Shown one piece after another: positions 5,239 through 28,309 of a stretch of DNA of 28,325 nucleotides; position 1 is the first letter of the stretch, and each line of letters starts with the position of its first letter. A model generated the notes under the pieces. That model was not told where the DNA came from. It searched no databases and saw only the letters and a list, made by a program, of their open reading frames with translations. Source of the DNA: Physocladia obscura (taxonomy: Eukaryota > Chytridiomycota > Chytridiomycetes > Chytridiales > Chytriomycetaceae); the NCBI GenBank assembly GCA_027596945.1, contig JADGJH010000139.1, positions 1 to 28,325 of the forward strand. Direction: 5' to 3'. Made by a program: the position numbers and the translations under genes.

Positions 5239-7257
5239 CTAATGACAGGGTGGAATTTCGAGGGTCCCAGCTTTCCGTTTTCTTCGAATCTTACATCGTC
5301 GACACATACACTTTCCTTCACCATCTGAGCTTTCACTTTGAGTATTGTCCTGGCTCGCACCATCTGTTTCACTGTCGCTACTACTTGAACTGGAAGAATC
5401 CGAGCTGTCTGACGAACTTGGAGGAAGCATTGGTACAAAACTCAATTCCTTTGCTTTCTCTACAAGCCTTTTGAAAACTTCGGCCTTCGTCTTCCTCTGT
5501 CCTATTCCATCGTCGTCTACAGTCTCACTGATATATTTTGGATCCTTTGAAAAACACTCGAGCTTTTCCAAGAGCCGTTTTGCAAGACGGGGGCGACTGT
5601 TGCGAGTTTTAAGCCATACTGTTTCCCATCCAGCGACACTGCAAAAGTTTTGCGTAACGCCAACAGTAAAGTCAAGATTTATTACAATGTGATGCCACCC
5701 ACCTGGCACAAACATTGTTTCGCCAGGACGCTGGATAATATTAATGATGCCGAGACGTTCGGCAAGTGTCCGGCCTGTTGCATCGATTGTGGAAGAGTCA
5801 TGTAGACGGGGATAAACGATCGCAAACCAAGTAGCGGCTTCATGATCAGGAAGCCCGCGCAATGTGACAAAATGTTTGGGGACTTCTGGTGGGAAGAGAG
5901 CCCATCTAAACTATTATTAAGTTCTCTAAAATTTATGAACAAAAATTTCATATAATATTAATACCGTTTGTGTCCAAATATAAGAGTGTTCCAGGCACTT
6001 GTTCCCAGTGGATCAATGTGTATACCAGTTCCAGATCTTTTTGGCCCTATAACGACCCAGCGGTGTGGTGGACGTTTGCTGCCTGTAAATTGGAAAAGGT
6101 CATCGTGAAAGTATTTCGGTGGACTATAGTCAGCAAGCATCTCGCGAGTAGGTCTCGATTCCAGAAAACTACTTATGACTTCAGTTTCGATATTTGCAAT
6201 ATTTTTGGTAGTTGCCAAATTGGAAACAAAAGTTGCGTCAGAAATTTTCAGCCGTAAACGAAAATTTTTTCCGGTGTTCTCTGCTGGTGAGAAATTTTCT
6301 GGCACTTTCGCCAAGTTTTGCGTGATTTCTGATGTTTTCGATTTTTTTCGAGTATCTTCGTTGTCAGAATTAGATATTTCGCGTTTTTCCTTTGCGGTAA
6401 TCTCCGAGTCATTTATTGAGCTCAACAGTTCTTTTCTGTTTTCATCAGGAGATTTTGATTTTGGCTTTGGTTTGCTTTTTCGAATTTCGGTTGCCGTGTT
6501 GTTTCTAGACCGATCGCCAAAATTGGGGTCAAAAATATATAACGGGCTGTCGTCTTTGTCGGCATCGCCAGATTCGAGACAGTAATGCATGAAATGTGAA
6601 AACTGAACATGAACTAAAGCAAAGAAAATGAGTCAGAATGACATCAATCGTAAAATTTTCACTCACCTGTTTTGCCATCATCGTCTTCTCCAACCTTGAA
6701 TTTTTCGTTGTGAAACCGTTCTAGAAGTTTCTAGAATAAAATTCAGCTGAAAGATGGACCTGGACAGATTAACTCACTTGTGGGGACCAGTTTTCGCGAG
6801 CGAGCCAATCATTTGTAACGCCCGTTAAAATAACGGGGAGTCCTGGTTGCTCAAACCGTTCCGTAAACTCAGAATGGGAAACAAAATTAACGTCAATACG
6901 TTCAGTATCATCGAGATAATCGGGAATGTGGAAGTTTAGTTTGGCAAAGCCAGCTCGTGCCCAGTTTGCAACGTCGAGTTCTGTCTTGAAAAAACCAGAC
7001 TGAGAAAACAAAGCGGGAAAGACGCACAAGAAACCTGAGCGGGCGTTACGCTTTGCTCTCCGGATGCGACGTGCATATCGCGACAGTTTTACTGATGATT
7101 CTGTGTATACGTTGGGTCTAGATTCCAGCTTTGCAGCACTTGATTTGCGCGTAAAGTCTTTTGCCGCCAGCCACTGTATTGTTTCATTCGTCTCAACATT
7201 GACCCGCATTTGCGAAAAGTGCTGGGCAGTTACTGCTGTTTTAGCTGCTGACATCAT
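5239..7257 (-). CDS. JMJD6: JMJD6-like JmjC-domain 2-oxoglutarate/Fe(II) oxygenase
   Basis: Four exons on the minus strand (7257-6778, 6730-6667, 6613-5965, 5905-5239) join in frame to 619 residues. JMJD6 proteins are nuclear lysyl hydroxylases, also reported as arginine demethylases, acting on splicing factors and histones. The product matches the family throughout: ARRIRRAKR near the N-terminus, [10 protein letters not shown], the iron-binding HID in [13 protein letters not shown] (H380, D382), [17 protein letters not shown] and the distal His in WHHIVINLD (H470). It ends in a Ser-rich acidic tail ([15 protein letters not shown]) and a basic Cys cluster ([15 protein letters not shown]). It is longer than the roughly 400-residue animal protein because of a disordered Lys/Ser/Glu-rich insertion at about 217-338. 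The start at 7257 is chosen because an upstream in-frame ATG at 7326 would overlap the first exon of the divergent gene. Iron ligands are intact, so it is probably active. Confidence 0.9.
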
Positions 7258-7292: not shown

Positions 7293-10200
7293 ATGTCTCG
7301 ACATCGACATGTTCGCAACTTGGCATTGGACGATTACGTTGATAACGGCGATGACGATGACTACAGCGACGAAGATTACGACAAAAATGATCTTCAAAAC
7401 GAGCCTGGTTTATCCCTTTTTCCTCTTGTTTTTTGTTTTATGATTTTGGTTTGAGTTGAGTGACTTATTTAAAAAATCAGAACCGATTCAAATTGCTTAT
7501 ACTGCTCCTTCACGTAATGTGTCTGGTAAATCATCGGCAATATCAACACCGTCCATGCGTAAAGCCAGCGTGCCGTTGACGGGTAAATAGCTGCCTTTTT
7601 TGTTACTCTATTGAACACTGCTGTTTCAGCAATTCGAAACGTGATGAATATTGTTGGATCTGGCTTTTCAGTAGACAGAGTTACGAATGCGTTATTAAAA
7701 TATGACGGCAGTGAAGAACGCGCCATAAATTATTTACTCGACAGCAGTGACCAAAATGGTGAGTTTCTCCTCCCAATATTCCCGTCTCGTTTCAAACCGC
7801 ATAGTGGGGGGGTGGCAAACATATTATCCGCACCGCTACTTTGATTTTGCTGTCCTCAAAATTCGATATCGCTTTGAATTTTGATCGCAAGCTGAAATCG
7901 TTCTCAGTATCATCACCGATTAAAAACTACCAAATTGATGAGAATGAATCGAAATCATCTGATAATCCCACTGCAAACTTGCCACAATCATTAAGTTCTC
8001 TGAAGTTAGGAGTTGCATCTGTTTCAAAAAGTAATTCTCTGTTGTCCAAGCCTGCTTTACCTGTGTCCTTGGCAAGTTTGGGTAAATCCGCTCCAATTAG
8101 CCAACCTCCGCCAACTTTGTCATCTCTATCCAACTTTGGCGGTGGTATCAAATTTCAAAATCAAAATATGGCTGGCAGTGGTGGTTTGCATGCGCTGGCT
8201 AGTTTAAGTAAACCAAAAATACCATTAACCTCTGGAGGATTAAACGCAGTTACAACTACAAACCCCGGACTTTCATCAATGAGATCAAACACGGCATTGA
8301 CCGGTCTTGGAGAAGGACCAAATTCAGGATCTAATCGCGAATCGAGCCTTATTAGCAAAAAATTAGATGGTGGTATTTCATCGGGAAATGTAATATCTGA
8401 AGCCTTGACTGCAATGTCTTTACGAGAATCTATATCTTATTCAAAATCAGCTCTACTTGTTCCAAAATTACTGCAATCAAATCTTTCACTTTCTACAATG
8501 ACGGGATTAAATCAAAAACCTGTTTCAATCACTGCAAAATTATCACCAAAAACTGCGAATGAGAAAATATTGAAACAAAAACTTGTGACTGATCGAAAAT
8601 CAGCGCTTTCAGAAAATTTATTACCTGATACCAACTATTCAACATCAATTTTTGCCAAACCCTCCGCTTTTGCATCTTTTTGGACATCTGACTTCACCTT
8701 TCTTGACGCGAGTACGCATGTAAAAATTAATAACCAAGTTTTTGCAAATTTGTTAGATGCATCTACTGTCGATGGGAAAAAATTCGATTTTTCAACTCCA
8801 AGTCCAGACGATCGTGTTTTCGCCGCCAGATCTGGTGTGTGAGAATGTTTTTCCTGTATTTCATTTAATTTAATAATTTTTTCTTTATTCATCTTTTGGA
8901 AATAAGGAAAACTTGCGGGAACAAAGCCTTCCATTGGCAACGCATACAACGCAAAAACTTCAACAAAACCAGTCAACCCAAATGTCCAGGCCATAATAAC
9001 ACAAGGCATCAAATCGATTTCAATTTCATCATCTTTGGCATCAAGTTCAAAGAACTCAACAAAATCCCATGTGATTCCCAAAAGCACAATAAGAGAAGAA
9101 ATTCCTCGCTCTCGATCAGTATCACCGGTTCGAGCATCTTCGCCAGCAAGAAGCACAACAAGTGTTGCATCAAGTGGAAAGGTTGGTATTCCAGTTCAAC
9201 AACCGCCACAACATTCGAAAGTAGGCGCAGGGAAAAAAATTGATGTTTTAGCTGAATATGCAAAAAGAAATTCGGACAAATCGTCTATTAATTTAGTGAT
9301 TGTTGGTTTGTGCTGGCTTTTTTTCTTTTGTTGTTGTTGTCGTTGTTGCATTTATCACTTCTTTCTCAAATTGCAGGACATGTTGATGCTGGAAAATCCA
9401 CACTGATGGGTAAGAAAAATATTAAAGACTAAGTTTTTACATTTTTCTGATTTTCAATTTAATTAGGACATCTTCTTTATTTACTCGGCGAAGTGAATGA
9501 AAAAACGATGAAAAAATACGAACGTGATGCCGAAAAAATGAAGAAGGGATCTTTTTGTTTTGCGTGGGTTTTGGACGAAACCGAAGAAGAACGCTCTCGG
9601 TAACATAGAAATGAAATATGTTTTTGGCCTTCTTCCGATTCTTTTTCTTCCTTTAGTGGCGTGACAATAGACGTTGGAATGTCGTATTTTGAGACTGAAA
9701 GCCACCGGTTCACTATTTTGGATGCACCCGGACATCGTGATTTTATCCCAAATATGATTTCTGGTGCTTCGCAGGTAATTTCGCATGCCTTTTTATTAAA
9801 TTTCCTAAAAATTATAAAACTAAAAAAATGAAGGCGGATGCTGCTCTTTTGGTGATTGATAGCGGGACTGGAGAATTTGAAGTCGGATTTGAATTAGGCG
9901 GGCAAACTCGAGAACATGCTCTGCTTGTTCGAAGTTTAGGTGTTAACCAACTTGTTGTTGCTATAAACAAGCTTGATATGGTAAGAGGTATTCGTTTTAA
10001 ACAAAGTTCTGAAATTTTTATTTCTATATTTGGGTATGCTTTTATTTTCTGGTCATTATCAGATGAGTTGGTCTCAAGCGCGTTTCTTGGAGATAAAAGA
10101 AAAACTGTTTGTGTTTTTTCTTGGCGCTGGATTCAAGAAGAACAACATTTTTTTTGTTCCATGTAGTGGATTCACTGGGGAAAATATGATAGAAAGGAAG

Positions 10201-13049: not shown

Positions 13050-13718
13050 AATACTATCCAAAAGAATTATATGGTGTCTGTGCATGGAATTGACTTAAAA
13101 ACTTGGATCAAATATATTGATCAAGGTACAATGCTGCTCTACTGCTATTAACCAAAGCTTTGTGCAATCTATATGCTTTTATTAAAACCAAATTATTTCT
13201 AGTATCCATGGAAAAGTCAAATGCAGCTTTAATTTAACAAATTCTTTCAATGGTTGTTGATGCCATATTTTGATGCCACGCCACCTCTTGAACCTTGCAG
13301 CTATTATTCAGTAAAAGACAAGTTTCATGCCTTGAAATATGAGGTTGCTTTCACAATTTGTGATCCTCATATGGTGAGTGGTTCATTTAAAGGTGCTGTT
13401 TCTGACAGAACAATTGCATACCATAAATTATTGCATAATCTTTGTGCTTTGGAAATACTGCTAGCTGACAAGGGATATGCAGGAGAGGATCACTTGCTTA
13501 TTCCTGTAAAAGCGTCAAACAATTCAGCTGATGAAATATTCAATTCACAACATTTCAGAATCTGCCAGTTGATTGATAGGATGAACAAGCAGATTAAACA
13601 TTTTGACTGTTTAGCAGGAGTCTGGAGGCATGGATATTTGCAAAACAAAATAGCATTCATATTATTTGTAGATCAACTAATATTATTATTGATTTGGGAG
13701 AGCCATTGTGAAAAATAA
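13050..13718 (+). pseudogene. PIF/Harbinger-like DDE transposase (decayed)
   Basis: One plus-strand frame from 13050 to the TAA at 13716-13718 is interrupted by TAA 13149, TAG 13200 and TAA 13230. After that it is open for 154 codons. It carries the order of motifs of DDE_Tnp_4-type transposases: PYFDATPPLE with a first acidic residue, YYSVKDKFHALKYEVAF, VSDRTIAYHKLL with the second acidic region, LLADKGYAGEDHLLIPVK, and a C-terminal LAGVWRHGYLQNKIAF. The glutamate expected in the IIE-type motif seems to be Asp (LIDRMNKQIKHF), which with the stops argues against activity. Upstream plus-strand sequence (about 12780-13050) may hold more of the gene in other frames. Confidence 0.65.
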
Positions 13719-16325: not shown

Positions 16326-17822
16326 TCAAATTTTCTTATTGGTTGTAGCGGAAGTAGACAAAGTGGAAAACAATTTCCAAGTACCTAAACACGCTGCCGT
16401 TAAACCTGCCAAATCTTGAACATGTTGTAACTGCTTTGCAGGGCCGCGCATTTTTTCGACCTGTTTAACAACTCCAAACACATCAAACGAACAAAACAGA
16501 CAATCTGCCACCAGTTTTGCCAAAGTTAATTGAGATATCCAAATCTTCAGCTCAGCATCACAAATTTTTTCATTTGTTGCAGCAATTAGAACTGCTGCAG
16601 TGCTTGGTGATGTGTCACCACTGCAAACAATGGTTTCATCATCATCAATGACAGATTCGGAAACTTTGCAGATTTCAGCAGACATGCTTTGATCAAGCTG
16701 CAAAATAAGAACGCGACGCTTTTCATGCAAATCAACAAGAGTACGACGTGTTGCATTCAATTTATCCCATACATCACGCACATCAAATCCAATTCCTATA
16801 AGCCAGAGTCTGTCAGCCCATGTGTCAAAAAAAGGGTTTTGATCTTTAAGACCGATTTTGGCAAGCGTCACATTGTCATCCGCAATATTAGTGAGTAAGG
16901 CATTAATGTTTGAAAAAAAGTTGAAGAGGTACGCAGGGCTTGCGTCTGGCGATGTTGATGACAAAAATTCGATAGGCGCAAGAAAAGAACCGAAGCGAAT
17001 GAGTTTTCTGGCGACAGAAAGATGCGGGATCATTTTGGCAAGGGATTTTCGAGTGCGAGCAGTCACAGGGAGAATCGAAAGAAACTTTACCCACAAAAGA
17101 ACTTTTGCAGAGTACTGGATAACTTTGAGGATCTTTTAAATTTTAATATCAGTCAAATCATGCCACCGCAAGTGTTGTCAACAACGAAAAAACAAAAACA
17201 AAAAAACGCAAAAATAAACCTTGTCTCGCCCATCGTTAAGAAGCAATATTTTACGAAAAATAAGGATTTTAAAGATCAGATTGGATGATGCAAATTTCGT
17301 GGCAGATTTCTCAGAAATGACCTGAGAAACTTTTTTTGGTTTTGAATTCACTTCATTATTTACTGGGTGTGAGAATGTTTGGAGGGTGCTTGACGAGAGT
17401 GAACGCAACAAAGTAACAGCCTTATCACTAAGCGCAATGCGTGGAATGGACTTTACACTCGAGATTGGAATGGAGAATGGGATTGGGATGAAGCTTGGTG
17501 TTTTATTGCGCAAAAACGATTGGTTTTCGAGCAGTTTTGCAGGAAGCAGCGGAGGCATTTGCTGAGCGCTGAGCGGGTGTTTTCCTTCGCCGGCAGCGAA
17601 TGTCGCTGAGTTCAAGATTGTTGGCGATTGCAGAATAGCCATTTGTTGCTGATTAACTGATGGTGGACTGGATTCTTTTGTTATCAGTTTGGTTGATGAC
17701 TCTATTTTTGGATCGTCGCCTTTTTGCGCTGCTATTGCCTCATCGTGTTTCACATTGTCGGTTTCAATTGCTGTGCATTCCGAGTCTGTAAGCGAATGCT
17801 CCGAACGTGCTGGGCTATGCAT
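16326..17822 (-). CDS. PEX11: Peroxisomal membrane protein PEX11 family, with long N-terminal extension
   Basis: Two minus-strand exons (17822-17220 and 17132-16326, intron 87 nt with GTTTAT...AAAAG) join in phase 0 to 469 residues. PEX11 proteins bend and elongate the peroxisomal membrane and promote peroxisome division. The family signature spans the splice junction: GRDK then ILKVIQYSAKVLLW. It continues with RTRKSLAKMIPHLSVARKLIRFGSF, a helical stretch NALLTNIADDNVTLAKIGL, and a C-terminal hydrophobic segment DLAGLTAACLGTWKLF. Typical PEX11 proteins are about 230-280 residues, which fits residues 195-469 here. Residues 1 to about 185 are an added Ser/Pro/Gln-rich, probably disordered region starting MHSPARSEHSLTD. 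It may be regulatory (phosphorylation is known for PEX11 in yeast), but that is inference. Confidence 0.82.
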
Positions 17823-21192: not shown

Positions 21193-22937
21193 ATGCTGTT
21201 GGAGTCAACAAGGATTGCAATATCAGCTACACGTGTGATTTATAGCGCCATCAGTATCGGAGAAATCAATTTGCATTCTCGAATTCTCCGATGCAATATT
21301 CGTGCCGTTCCATTTTCGTCCGAATGCTGTACGCCAATAAATCAAAAAACAAATCAAGCAGAAAAGCAAACACAATCCCAACTAAGGCCAATCGAACTAT
21401 CTAAATTCAACTACATCCAACACCTCCTCGTATTATCTCCAGCTCACTCGATTCAATCAGAGTGGCCAAAGAAAATTGAGGCCGACCCGTACATTTCCAA
21501 ACTCAACGAGGCCACAGCAATCTTATCAAATCTCAAAATCACAGCGTCAACAACAATATCATCATCACCACCACCATCTCCATCGGCAATTGCACCTCTT
21601 CAATTCCAATCCCAATCCGAATCTGCACGCGACATTCTCGTATTCCCCGACATGCTACACTTTAAAAATGTGTGCCCACAATCGTTTGACGTCCTTGTGA
21701 AACATCTTGTTGAATCACGACTCGGTGTTTTTAATGCGTCAACTGCTTCATCTGATATTGCCGTTGACACGTGCACTGGGACACACCACCTGCTCGTGTG
21801 TACGCACGCGTCTCGCGATGTTCGATGCGGTGCATTGGGTTACCGCCTTATTTCTGCATTGGCTGATGTTCTTGGACCGCGTAAAGATGTTGTTGTACAT
21901 GAGTCGTCGCATGTTGGAGGCCACGCATGGGCTGCGAATTTGATTGCATATCCGCGTGGCGATTGGTATGGAAATCTTGCACAAAGTGGTGAGACTGCTG
22001 TACCAGATGCGCGTGCTCTTGTGGATGCTGTAGACACTGGCGTCGTGTTTTGGGAAAAATGGAGGGGTCGTATTGGATTGGATGAAGCTGTTATGAAACG
22101 AATGGTTGCAGCTAAAAAGGAACTCGATAAAGATGCAAAAGAGGCTGGCAGTTGTTGTAGCGGTGACATTTCTGCAGAACCCGCAAGTGGTAGAAAAACT
22201 GACCATGTAGGTGTTGCTGAGAAGAAGCAGCAAACAATCAAAGTTACGTATGTTCTTCAAAACGGTCAGCGAATAGTTGTGGATGCAGAACTGTCAGAGT
22301 TTACACCGGCAGATCCAGAAAATCCATACTTTCCATCAACTGCAGCCGATACACGCGTACCTATAACTGCAACAACAGCGAACACTCCTCTCACAATAAC
22401 TCCAAACATTCACGAGAAAGAGGTGTCGGCGTTGCTTTCAAAAGAAGCAGATGAAATTGAACTAACATTTGTGTTGGGAAACGGACCCAAAGCTGAACGG
22501 CGACTAGTTCGACCCAAAATTGGTCAAAGTCTTCTTGATGTGGCCAAAGACGCAAATATTCCAACTATAGAAGGTGTTTGCGGTGGAAATATGGAATGCG
22601 CAACATGCCATGTTATCGGTTAGGACCCTGTTGTCTTCTGTTTGTTGCCGTGTTTCGTTTTCTGGTTTAAAATCCTGAAATTAAATTCTTTAGTTCATGA
22701 CAATCACTTTACGCGTCTTCCACCACCATCAGAAGGCGAAGAAGATATGCTAGAATACGCAATAGGCAGAAAAGATTGGTATATTTGTATTATTATTATT
22801 TTGGTTCATTTTATAGTTTTTTTCTGATGAAAATAATTTTCAGCTCCAGGTTGGCGTGTCAACTAAAAGTAAGCAAAGAAATGGATGGAATGGAATTCCG
22901 CATACATATTCCTGCATCGGGCGAAATTTTTGTTTGA
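21193..22937 (+). CDS. Apd1/Aim32-type bis-His [2Fe-2S] domain fused to an adrenodoxin-type [2Fe-2S] ferredoxin
   Basis: Three exons (21193-22618, 22694-22778, 22844-22937) join to 534 residues. The N-terminal part is a sucrase/ferredoxin-like (Apd1/Aim32) thioredoxin-fold domain: HLLVCTHASRDVRCGALGYR gives C203 and C212, and SSHVGGHAWAANLIAYPRGD gives H240 and H244. This is the 2-Cys/2-His ligand set of the non-Rieske [2Fe-2S] proteins Apd1 and Aim32. WRGRIGL follows. The C-terminal part is a vertebrate-type ferredoxin: CGGNMECATC gives C463-x5-C469-x2-C472, then LPPPSEGEEDMLEYA and C509 in SRLACQLKV. The 46-residue C463-C509 span equals that of adrenodoxin. The N-terminus (MLLESTRIAISATRVIY) is rich in Arg/Ser and low in acids, fitting a mitochondrial presequence. 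Both ligand sets are intact, so one chain should carry two clusters. The electron partner is unknown. Confidence 0.88.
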
Positions 22938-26836: not shown

Positions 26837-28309
26837 ATGCCTGCCGCCAGAGAATCGCAGCTTAGGCCCAAGTCGCACAAGAAAACTTTTATTATAGTCG
26901 CTACTGTTATTGTTGTTGTTGCCGTTGCGGGTGGTTTGGCCGGATACTTTGTGACGAAGAACAACAATAATAGTAACAGCAGCTCCAGCGCCTCATCAAG
27001 CTCGCCAAGCGCAACTACAACCTCATCCACTTCATCAAATAAAACAGCAACACCAACAGCTGGAAAGCACTTTTTTGGCTACTGGGGACAGAGTGCTGTT
27101 GGTACTGACCTATTATTGATTATGCAAACTTGTTCTATAATCATCTCTTACTATTTCTTCAGGTAATGATGTCGGCCCGCTCGGTCTTGGGACACGGCCA
27201 ATCGATAATGATCAGCAGCAGTACAGTCTCGCAAGCTATTGCGATCTTGAGTATTACCAGACAATGAACTTAGCCTTTCTGTATGCGTTTGGAGGCGGCG
27301 ACGGACACTGGGCACTCGATCTTTCTTCACTGGGTAGATACCATGTTTATCCTAACGGAACAAGTTCGACGGAGCTTAACGGCGACCCTATTGATGTAAC
27401 AAACATGACTGTGTCACGTGGTTGAAATTTAACCAAAGAAAATTTCTTGTAAAAACGCAGGCATCGGTTTTCACGCAAGTCGGGAATAATATTACTTACT
27501 GCCAATCAAAAGGAATCAAAGTTATTCTGTCGATTGGCGGCGACATGCATTCTCCATATTCTTTCATTCAAGGCGATGGTGCATTGTATGGCAAAATCTT
27601 TTACGATGCGTTCTTGGGCGGTAACGGCGCGCACCGTCCATTCGGCTCTGCCGTTCTCGACGGCCTCGAACTTGATATCGAAAAAACTGACACGTACTAT
27701 ACACAAGAAATGATTTCATTGATAGAAACAGTTAAAGCCCTGAATTCCAAAGTCATTTTCTCCGCCGTTCCGCAATGTTTCCTGAATGGTATCAACGAGG
27801 ACTTAAATACTGGGCCTGTCATCAAATCGAATCCCGAATTTTTTGATTACATTGTTATACAGTATTACAATAACCCTTCATGCTCATACCCCTTTGGTTT
27901 CAATTTTGGCATTTGGACAAACGTTACCAGTGTGCCACTTGTGATTGGACTTGCCGGAGACCCCACATCTGCAATCACGGGGGGGTTTTTGAATGCGGGA
28001 CAATTGCAAGCAGTGGTTGATATGGTCTGGAACAATACGCAATTCTTGGGAATGTCTGTGTATGACGTTTCGTCATCAAATCCATGGTTTTCAAATTACT
28101 CGTCAATCATGCGAAACGCATTAAATGGAGAGATTGTGGGCAGTGGGTATCCACCGCAGGGTGCTTTCACAACGGAGCAACAGTATGCCGCAAGATGTGC
28201 GGGTACATGGAATTACGCGAATGAAACATGCAATTTAGTAACATGCCAGCCAGATGGAAGCTGCACAGACACCACACAATATTGCTTCAACTTTTTGTCT
28301 GCATGTTAG
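26837..28309 (+). CDS. GH18 chitinase (class III type) with N-terminal membrane anchor
   Basis: Three exons (26837-27101, 27163-27410, 27461-28309) join to 453 residues. GH18 chitinases hydrolyse chitin, here probably in wall remodelling. Residues 1-16 are basic and followed by a hydrophobic segment 17-39 (FIIVATVIVVVAVAGGLAGY), a signal anchor that would put the enzyme outside the plasma membrane. A Ser/Thr/Asn-rich stalk leads to the catalytic barrel at about residue 77 (FFGYWGQS). Family marks are LSIGGD (194-199), the active-site strand LDGLELDIEK with catalytic E245, and IVIQYYNNPSC. The strand motif is DxxExDxE instead of the usual DxxDxDxE (E241 for D), a conservative change near the catalytic acid. 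The C-terminus is Cys-rich (CNLVTCQPDGSCTDTTQYC). The phase-0 donor GTGTCA at 27411 is weak, so the second intron is the least certain part. Confidence 0.87.

Follow-up and report, generated by a model that had tools for sequence, protein, structure and literature searches.

Can a single polypeptide carry two unlike [2Fe-2S] sites, and would electrons then pass from one to the other inside it? This question is raised by a gene of the chytrid Physocladia obscura, located at positions 21193-22937 (plus strand, as are all its features given below) of a 28,325-nucleotide stretch of contig JADGJH010000139.1, hereafter the window, which a preliminary description had read as an Apd1/Aim32-type domain fused to an adrenodoxin-type ferredoxin. 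Exon 1 (21193-22618) encodes a leader, the whole Suc_Fer domain, the linker and the start of the ferredoxin past its third cysteine to V475, and is followed, directly after the CATCHVI motif, by a 75-base GT...AG intron (22619-22693). Exon 2 (22694-22778) encodes the middle of the ferredoxin with its EEDMLEYA region, and a second GT...AG intron, of 65 bases (22779-22843), separates it from exon 3 (22844-22937), which encodes C509, the last of the four ferredoxin cysteines, and the rest of the chain up to the stop codon. The spliced exons form a single open reading frame (ORF) of 534 residues, with an ATG start and a TGA stop, whose product is identical to the annotated P. obscura protein HK100_001749 (P0001) in the public protein set. 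Close relatives (P0002, P0003, P0004 and P0007) align continuously over both junctions, 22618/22694 and 22778/22844, and with these results the exon joins first proposed stand. The models of two further relatives, P0005 and P0006, stop early, at the aligned position of intron 2, where the odd tail of P0005 suggests an unspliced intron; both ends and the tail fit with a junction placed there. On the sequence evidence, 21193-22937 is one gene encoding one chain, and not an assembly accident.

The first half of the protein matches the Suc_Fer-like family PF06999 over residues 73-291 (21409-22065), with 107.9 bits against a Pfam gathering score of 34.9 (E 8.7e-31), three times the cut-off. It contains the 2-Cys/2-His ligands C203, C212, H240 and H244 (21799-21924) in the spacing C-X8-C ... 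H-X3-H (HxGGH), the motif given for the Apd1/Aim32 family in passages of two papers (PMC8482512, PMC11138216). It further shares with that family the near-invariant W258 and W290 and a thioredoxin-like fold: at residues 195-293, the predicted structure matches solved thioredoxin-like ferredoxins. The difference lies in the second half, since yeast Aim32 (311 residues) and Apd1 (316 residues) have no ferredoxin domain. We conclude that the Suc_Fer half of HK100_001749 is Apd1/Aim32-type and has a putative bis-His [2Fe-2S] site. The cluster of Aim32 and Apd1 is held by two cysteines and two histidines, the latter allowing proton-coupled electron transfer, according to part of one account (PMC11138216). 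Sections of another paper locate Aim32 in both the matrix and the intermembrane space, report that its ligand residues matter for growth under stress, and propose a role in thiol redox quality control (PMC8482512). A passage of PMC11126956 describes Apd1 as having no known function, and one of PMC11138216 calls the function of thioredoxin-like ferredoxins elusive.

The second half, residues 420-527 (22450-22913), contains both introns and is predicted to be a ferredoxin of the adrenodoxin type. It matches PF00111 (Fer2) over residues 442-513 with 27.7 bits against a gathering score of 21 (E 2.7e-6), and the codons of its four cysteines lie at 22579-22581 (C463), 22597-22599 (C469), 22606-22608 (C472) and 22857-22859 (C509). 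Their spacing falls within the pattern Cys-X5-Cys-X2-Cys-X35-37-Cys, with X36 in P0001. The predicted structure has an adrenodoxin-type fold matching the solved Etp1 and FDX2 ferredoxins, and Schizosaccharomyces pombe Etp1 is second among the solved sequences closest to this domain. Where Yah1 reads CSTCHV and ENDMLDLA, the fused ferredoxin reads CATCHV and EEDMLEYA at the same places; it differs from Yah1, FDX2 and adrenodoxin in sitting behind a second redox domain and, in a small tree, outside the Yah1/Etp1/FDX2 clade. The best NCBIfam model for this half, the bacterial and archaeal TIGR02007 (fdx_isc), scores 55.7 bits, below its cut-off of 132.1. The spliced translation thus bears out the eight ligand positions and the adrenodoxin spacing of the preliminary description, here C-X5-C-X2-C-X36-C, and both of its family assignments lie above the Pfam gathering scores.

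The same pair of domains recurs in other fungi. A first protein search, in which the 7999 candidates with most shared words were scored, gave 21 proteins, 18 of them matching both domain profiles, and a search with the alignment of these first matches gave 31 (7998 candidates scored). Together with the best 120 of 351 matches to the Suc_Fer part, the collection reached 147 proteins: 43 match both profiles, 101 Suc_Fer only and three the ferredoxin only. The 43 fused proteins include the window's own and some fragments. The full set of eight ligands occurs in 36 of them, the other seven being fragments or early-stopping models; taken separately, the 2-Cys/2-His set is found in 42 (the remaining one is a fragment lacking that region) and the four ferredoxin cysteines in 37 (the other six are cut short). 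No ligand position is substituted in any of the 43 aligned proteins. Among the matches listed, and for the fused proteins other than P0015, P0022, P0123, P0130 and P0140, five phyla are represented: Calcarisporiellomycota; Mortierellomycota; Kickxellomycota (Dispira, Dimargaris); Basidiomycota (Mixia, Sporobolomyces, Rhodosporidiobolus, Malassezia, Rhizoctonia, Ceratobasidium, Tulasnella); and Chytridiomycota (Physocladia, Chytriomyces, Podochytrium, Entophlyctis, Rhizoclosmatium, Polychytrium, Zopfochytrium, Geranomyces, Powellomyces, Thoreauomyces, Gaertneriomyces, Cladochytrium, Chytridium, Quaeritorhiza and Chytridiales sp. JEL 0842). Taxonomy records were checked for seven cases spanning all five phyla, and the remaining genera presumably belong where we place them. 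No Ascomycota were recognised by name among the matches listed (best 120 of 351). The domain search and species list that the preliminary description had called for therefore return PF06999 and PF00111 in one chain across five fungal phyla. For many of these proteins, precomputed Pfam annotation already includes the two domains. In our literature searches, no title or abstract among those listed is devoted to the fusion, the main Apd1/Aim32 paper (Stegmaier 2019, JACS) lying outside their scope. Both halves are known families; what appears to be new is their union, kept across fungi. A different combination is seen in P0142 of Dioscorea alata, a single gene model with a UbiE/COQ5-type methyltransferase and a Suc_Fer domain, which may be a real fusion or a read-through model.

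What could such a protein do? The most likely reading is a self-contained two-step relay. The ferredoxin domain would be reduced by a ferredoxin reductase of the Arh1 (adrenodoxin-reductase) type and would hand single electrons to the bis-His cluster; the latter would couple them to protons and pass them on to an acceptor. Candidate acceptors are protein thiols in the oxidised state, in keeping with the role proposed for yeast Aim32, or an iron-sulfur assembly step. Through the fusion, the Aim32 half would no longer depend on a shared ferredoxin. With somewhat better than even confidence, we regard the protein as a naturally occurring electron relay with two clusters, located probably in mitochondria. 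The mitochondrial location is probable because the N-terminal 63 residues, modelled with a predicted local distance difference test score (pLDDT) below 50, look like a leader. We infer the direction of flow, from ferredoxin to bis-His cluster, from typical potentials, that of Apd1/Aim32 being higher than those of the adrenodoxin type. For bovine adrenodoxin, -270 mV is given in a passage of PMC6123783. As an idea, a ferredoxin fused to its acceptor is reminiscent of the self-sufficient cytochromes P450, in which the acceptor is instead a heme enzyme. The recurrent pairing offers a testable partner for the poorly understood Aim32-type half, and one protein could serve for studying how electrons move between a four-Cys and a bis-His [2Fe-2S] cluster, in that order.

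Our main tree of Suc_Fer halves was built from 44 of the 147 proteins, picked by hand and including 27 of the 43 fused ones. All 27 fused rows group on one side, together with five fungal rows of single-domain proteins (support 89/81, not starred). Single-domain proteins of Thelephora, Irpex, Cerrena and Somion are nested within the fused Agaricomycetes (forks 99/98 and 96/85), as is one of Serendipita, on a long branch, and a tree forcing all fused rows together is rejected by the approximately unbiased (AU) test (p_AU 0.0017), which was run after a quicker, 88-row tree was known. The latter includes every second member (39) of one group of 78 single-domain proteins and leaves out 19 listed proteins (fragments, near-copies and non-Suc_Fer proteins) and one short row; it recovers this nesting, less well supported, and gives no placement for the single-domain Coemansia protein P0121 (Kickxellomycota). 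With single-domain status taken from gene models, the position of single-domain Agaricomycetes inside the fused clade makes the fusion look old in fungi, and the ferredoxin half look later lost in some Agaricomycetes. Retention over five phyla, with loss visible in the tree, points indirectly to an adrenodoxin-type ferredoxin as the fungal partner of the family.

A bolder extension is that the two-cluster protein was already present in the last common ancestor of these phyla, and that single-domain fungal bis-His proteins, yeast Aim32 among them, are cut-down descendants now borrowing the shared Yah1. We regard this as possible and would not bet on it. In a tree with yeast Aim32 and Apd1 (two rows added, P0118 and P0141 having been dropped for long branches), the support is 24/79 and long branches meet. 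If true, the entire family in fungi would have had a ferredoxin-fed electron relay as its original function, and the chytrid forms with a third domain would connect this relay with the inner membrane. This C-terminal domain, PF06916 (FAM210A/B-like), is found in five of the 43 fused proteins (P0011, P0012, P0013, P0014 and P0018), from two Geranomyces, Powellomyces, Thoreauomyces and Gaertneriomyces. In Physocladia, FAM210-type proteins are encoded on contigs other than that of the fusion (C235:2843-3409 and C533:3098-3505 of assembly G000).

Several observations weigh against the relay. The ferredoxin half is missing in some Agaricomycetes. The two ligand motifs are separated by 95 to 218 residues in the 17 proteins with both motifs in a pattern scan, and in P0001 the linker residues 320-346 and 380-418 have pLDDT below 50, so that no fixed geometry is predicted; the block 461-470, with two of the ferredoxin cysteines, has a pLDDT of 52. 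Even in the short-linker relative P0010, the model (predicted template modelling score, pTM, 0.68) leaves the orientation of the domains unfixed. In addition, none of 44 bacterial loci contains a fused or nearby adrenodoxin-type ferredoxin, as searched with a profile from the fused fungal ferredoxins in ORFs of at least 60 codons, up to 5 kilobases on each side (many loci being shorter), and the pairing thus has no operon support outside fungi; only 13 of these loci score more than 100 bits with the Suc_Fer profile, and the others are distant relatives. Variable and partly disordered linkers would suit two independent sites, the fusion merely keeping two redox proteins together for import, stoichiometry or a common client, with no transfer between clusters, and the FAM210-type third domain indicates that modules do accrue in this family. 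Yet both parts are one-electron carriers by family, the ligands are unsubstituted in all fused proteins and the pair stays together over five phyla, and we consider independent sites unlikely.

Could the ferredoxin half instead be a general mitochondrial ferredoxin in the role of Yah1, made as a tail on another protein and perhaps cut free after import, with the Aim32 half a mere neighbour? S. pombe Etp1 offers the precedent, as a natural fungal fusion whose C-terminal adrenodoxin-type ferredoxin occupies residues 516-618 of a longer chain (2wlb) and, as mentioned above, is the second-nearest solved sequence. This ferredoxin is said to be released after import, which the long-linker forms of our fusion could permit, and its partner within the chain is reportedly the heme A synthase Cox15. 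The Etp1 partner is therefore not Aim32-type, and an Etp1-type architecture does not describe the Physocladia protein, in which Pfam places PF06999, and no heme A synthase family, ahead of the ferredoxin. One review, in the part consulted, names Arh1 as the partner of Etp1 (PMC7140478). In line with a Yah1 role, yeast Yah1 and the Yah1-like P0028, used as queries, matched only the fusion gene in the Physocladia genome, though Aminotran_5 proteins (the family including Nfs1) are present in the assembly. This is a weak test, for Isu1, expected in any such genome, was likewise not found in assembly G000, by family or by yeast sequence; either genes are missing from the assembly or this search overlooks short ones rich in introns. 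A Pfam Fer2 search of the genome gave no match and also missed the fusion gene itself.

The ferredoxin tree, a small one, points away from this general role. It was computed from 96 columns, with 30 of the 43 fused domains and seven non-fused rows, none of the latter from a known chytrid. Yah1, Etp1, FDX2 and three other non-fused ferredoxins form a clade (98/95) that excludes all 30 fused domains; the seventh, a bacterial ferredoxin, has a long branch and is placed amid the fused domains, and a single origin of the fused ferredoxins is not rejected (p_AU 0.461). The fused ferredoxins thus look more like a dedicated line than like Yah1 copied recently, and an Etp1-like carrier becomes less probable. 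The Calcarisporiella protein, with its halves only about 8 residues apart, points the same way. Moreover, the ferredoxin half is gone in some Agaricomycetes, impossible if it were the sole Yah1. Overall, we find an Etp1-like carrier quite improbable. These results also refine the earlier claim that the fusion names the redox partner of Aim32-type proteins: because the fused domains lie outside the Yah1/Etp1/FDX2 clade, in a tree with only seven stand-alone ferredoxins, and yeast Aim32 and Apd1 have no placement, the indicated partner is an adrenodoxin-type ferredoxin but not specifically Yah1.

Electrons might also run the other way, the bis-His domain acting as donor or sensor and the ferredoxin half as outlet, for instance feeding cluster assembly. 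The best NCBIfam model, although below its cut-off, is that of an iron-sulfur cluster assembly (ISC) ferredoxin, whereas adrenodoxin-type potentials are low and argue against this direction, the Apd1/Aim32 value being higher. Data in part of PMC5675994 list yeast Aim32 in nickel-nitrilotriacetic acid (Ni-NTA) pull-downs of Nfs1-His6 (row 29, 64 tandem mass spectrometry counts) and in a Yfh1-His6 pull-down (row 23, 20 counts). This is a weak hint, because a His-rich protein may itself bind nickel and the pull-down methods section mentions no untagged control. We give a reversed flow little credence. Finally, the chance of a gene-model or assembly artefact, such as the joining of two genes considered in the preliminary description, is practically nil, as nothing was found in its favour and it is refuted by 43 proteins that share this architecture and come from many different genomes and groups.

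Between the two domains of the relay protein, residues 346-382 (22228-22338) form a conserved linker element (VTYVLQNGQRI.VDAELSEFTPADP.NPYF) that the structure model of P0001 predicts to be a beta hairpin. Among six close relatives, its mean pairwise identity is 0.75, compared with 0.74 for the ferredoxin core and 0.37 and 0.21 for its flanks, and a divergent form occurs in Zopfochytrium and Cladochytrium. By eye, the element resembles the first hairpin of a ferredoxin. Its origin as a duplicate of the first ferredoxin strands is not borne out, since the similarity to the ferredoxin start in P0001 is at most 1.0 bit and not significant, and no convincing family match was found (best E 0.27 in Pfam and 0.46 in PDB).

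The Physocladia genome contains a second copy of the fusion gene, on the minus strand of contig C1052 at about 8780-9956 (L002, L006), spread over several frames. Its three longest blocks have 62-71% identity and the short blocks 58%, with no match to the fusion protein beyond residue 475, and part of it is contained in protein HK100_000931 (P0019). Judging from these alignments, the copy is a decayed paralogue or a diverged duplicate. Elsewhere in the window lie pieces of a JmjC hydroxylase gene (5239-5862, minus strand), of a GTP_EFTU gene (9828-10166, plus strand) and of a PEX11 gene (16326-17096, minus strand), a glycosyl hydrolase 18-like piece scoring under the family cut-off (27422-28309, plus strand), and a piece of a DDE_Tnp_4 transposase (13254-13718, plus strand; PF13359, E 1.9e-13).
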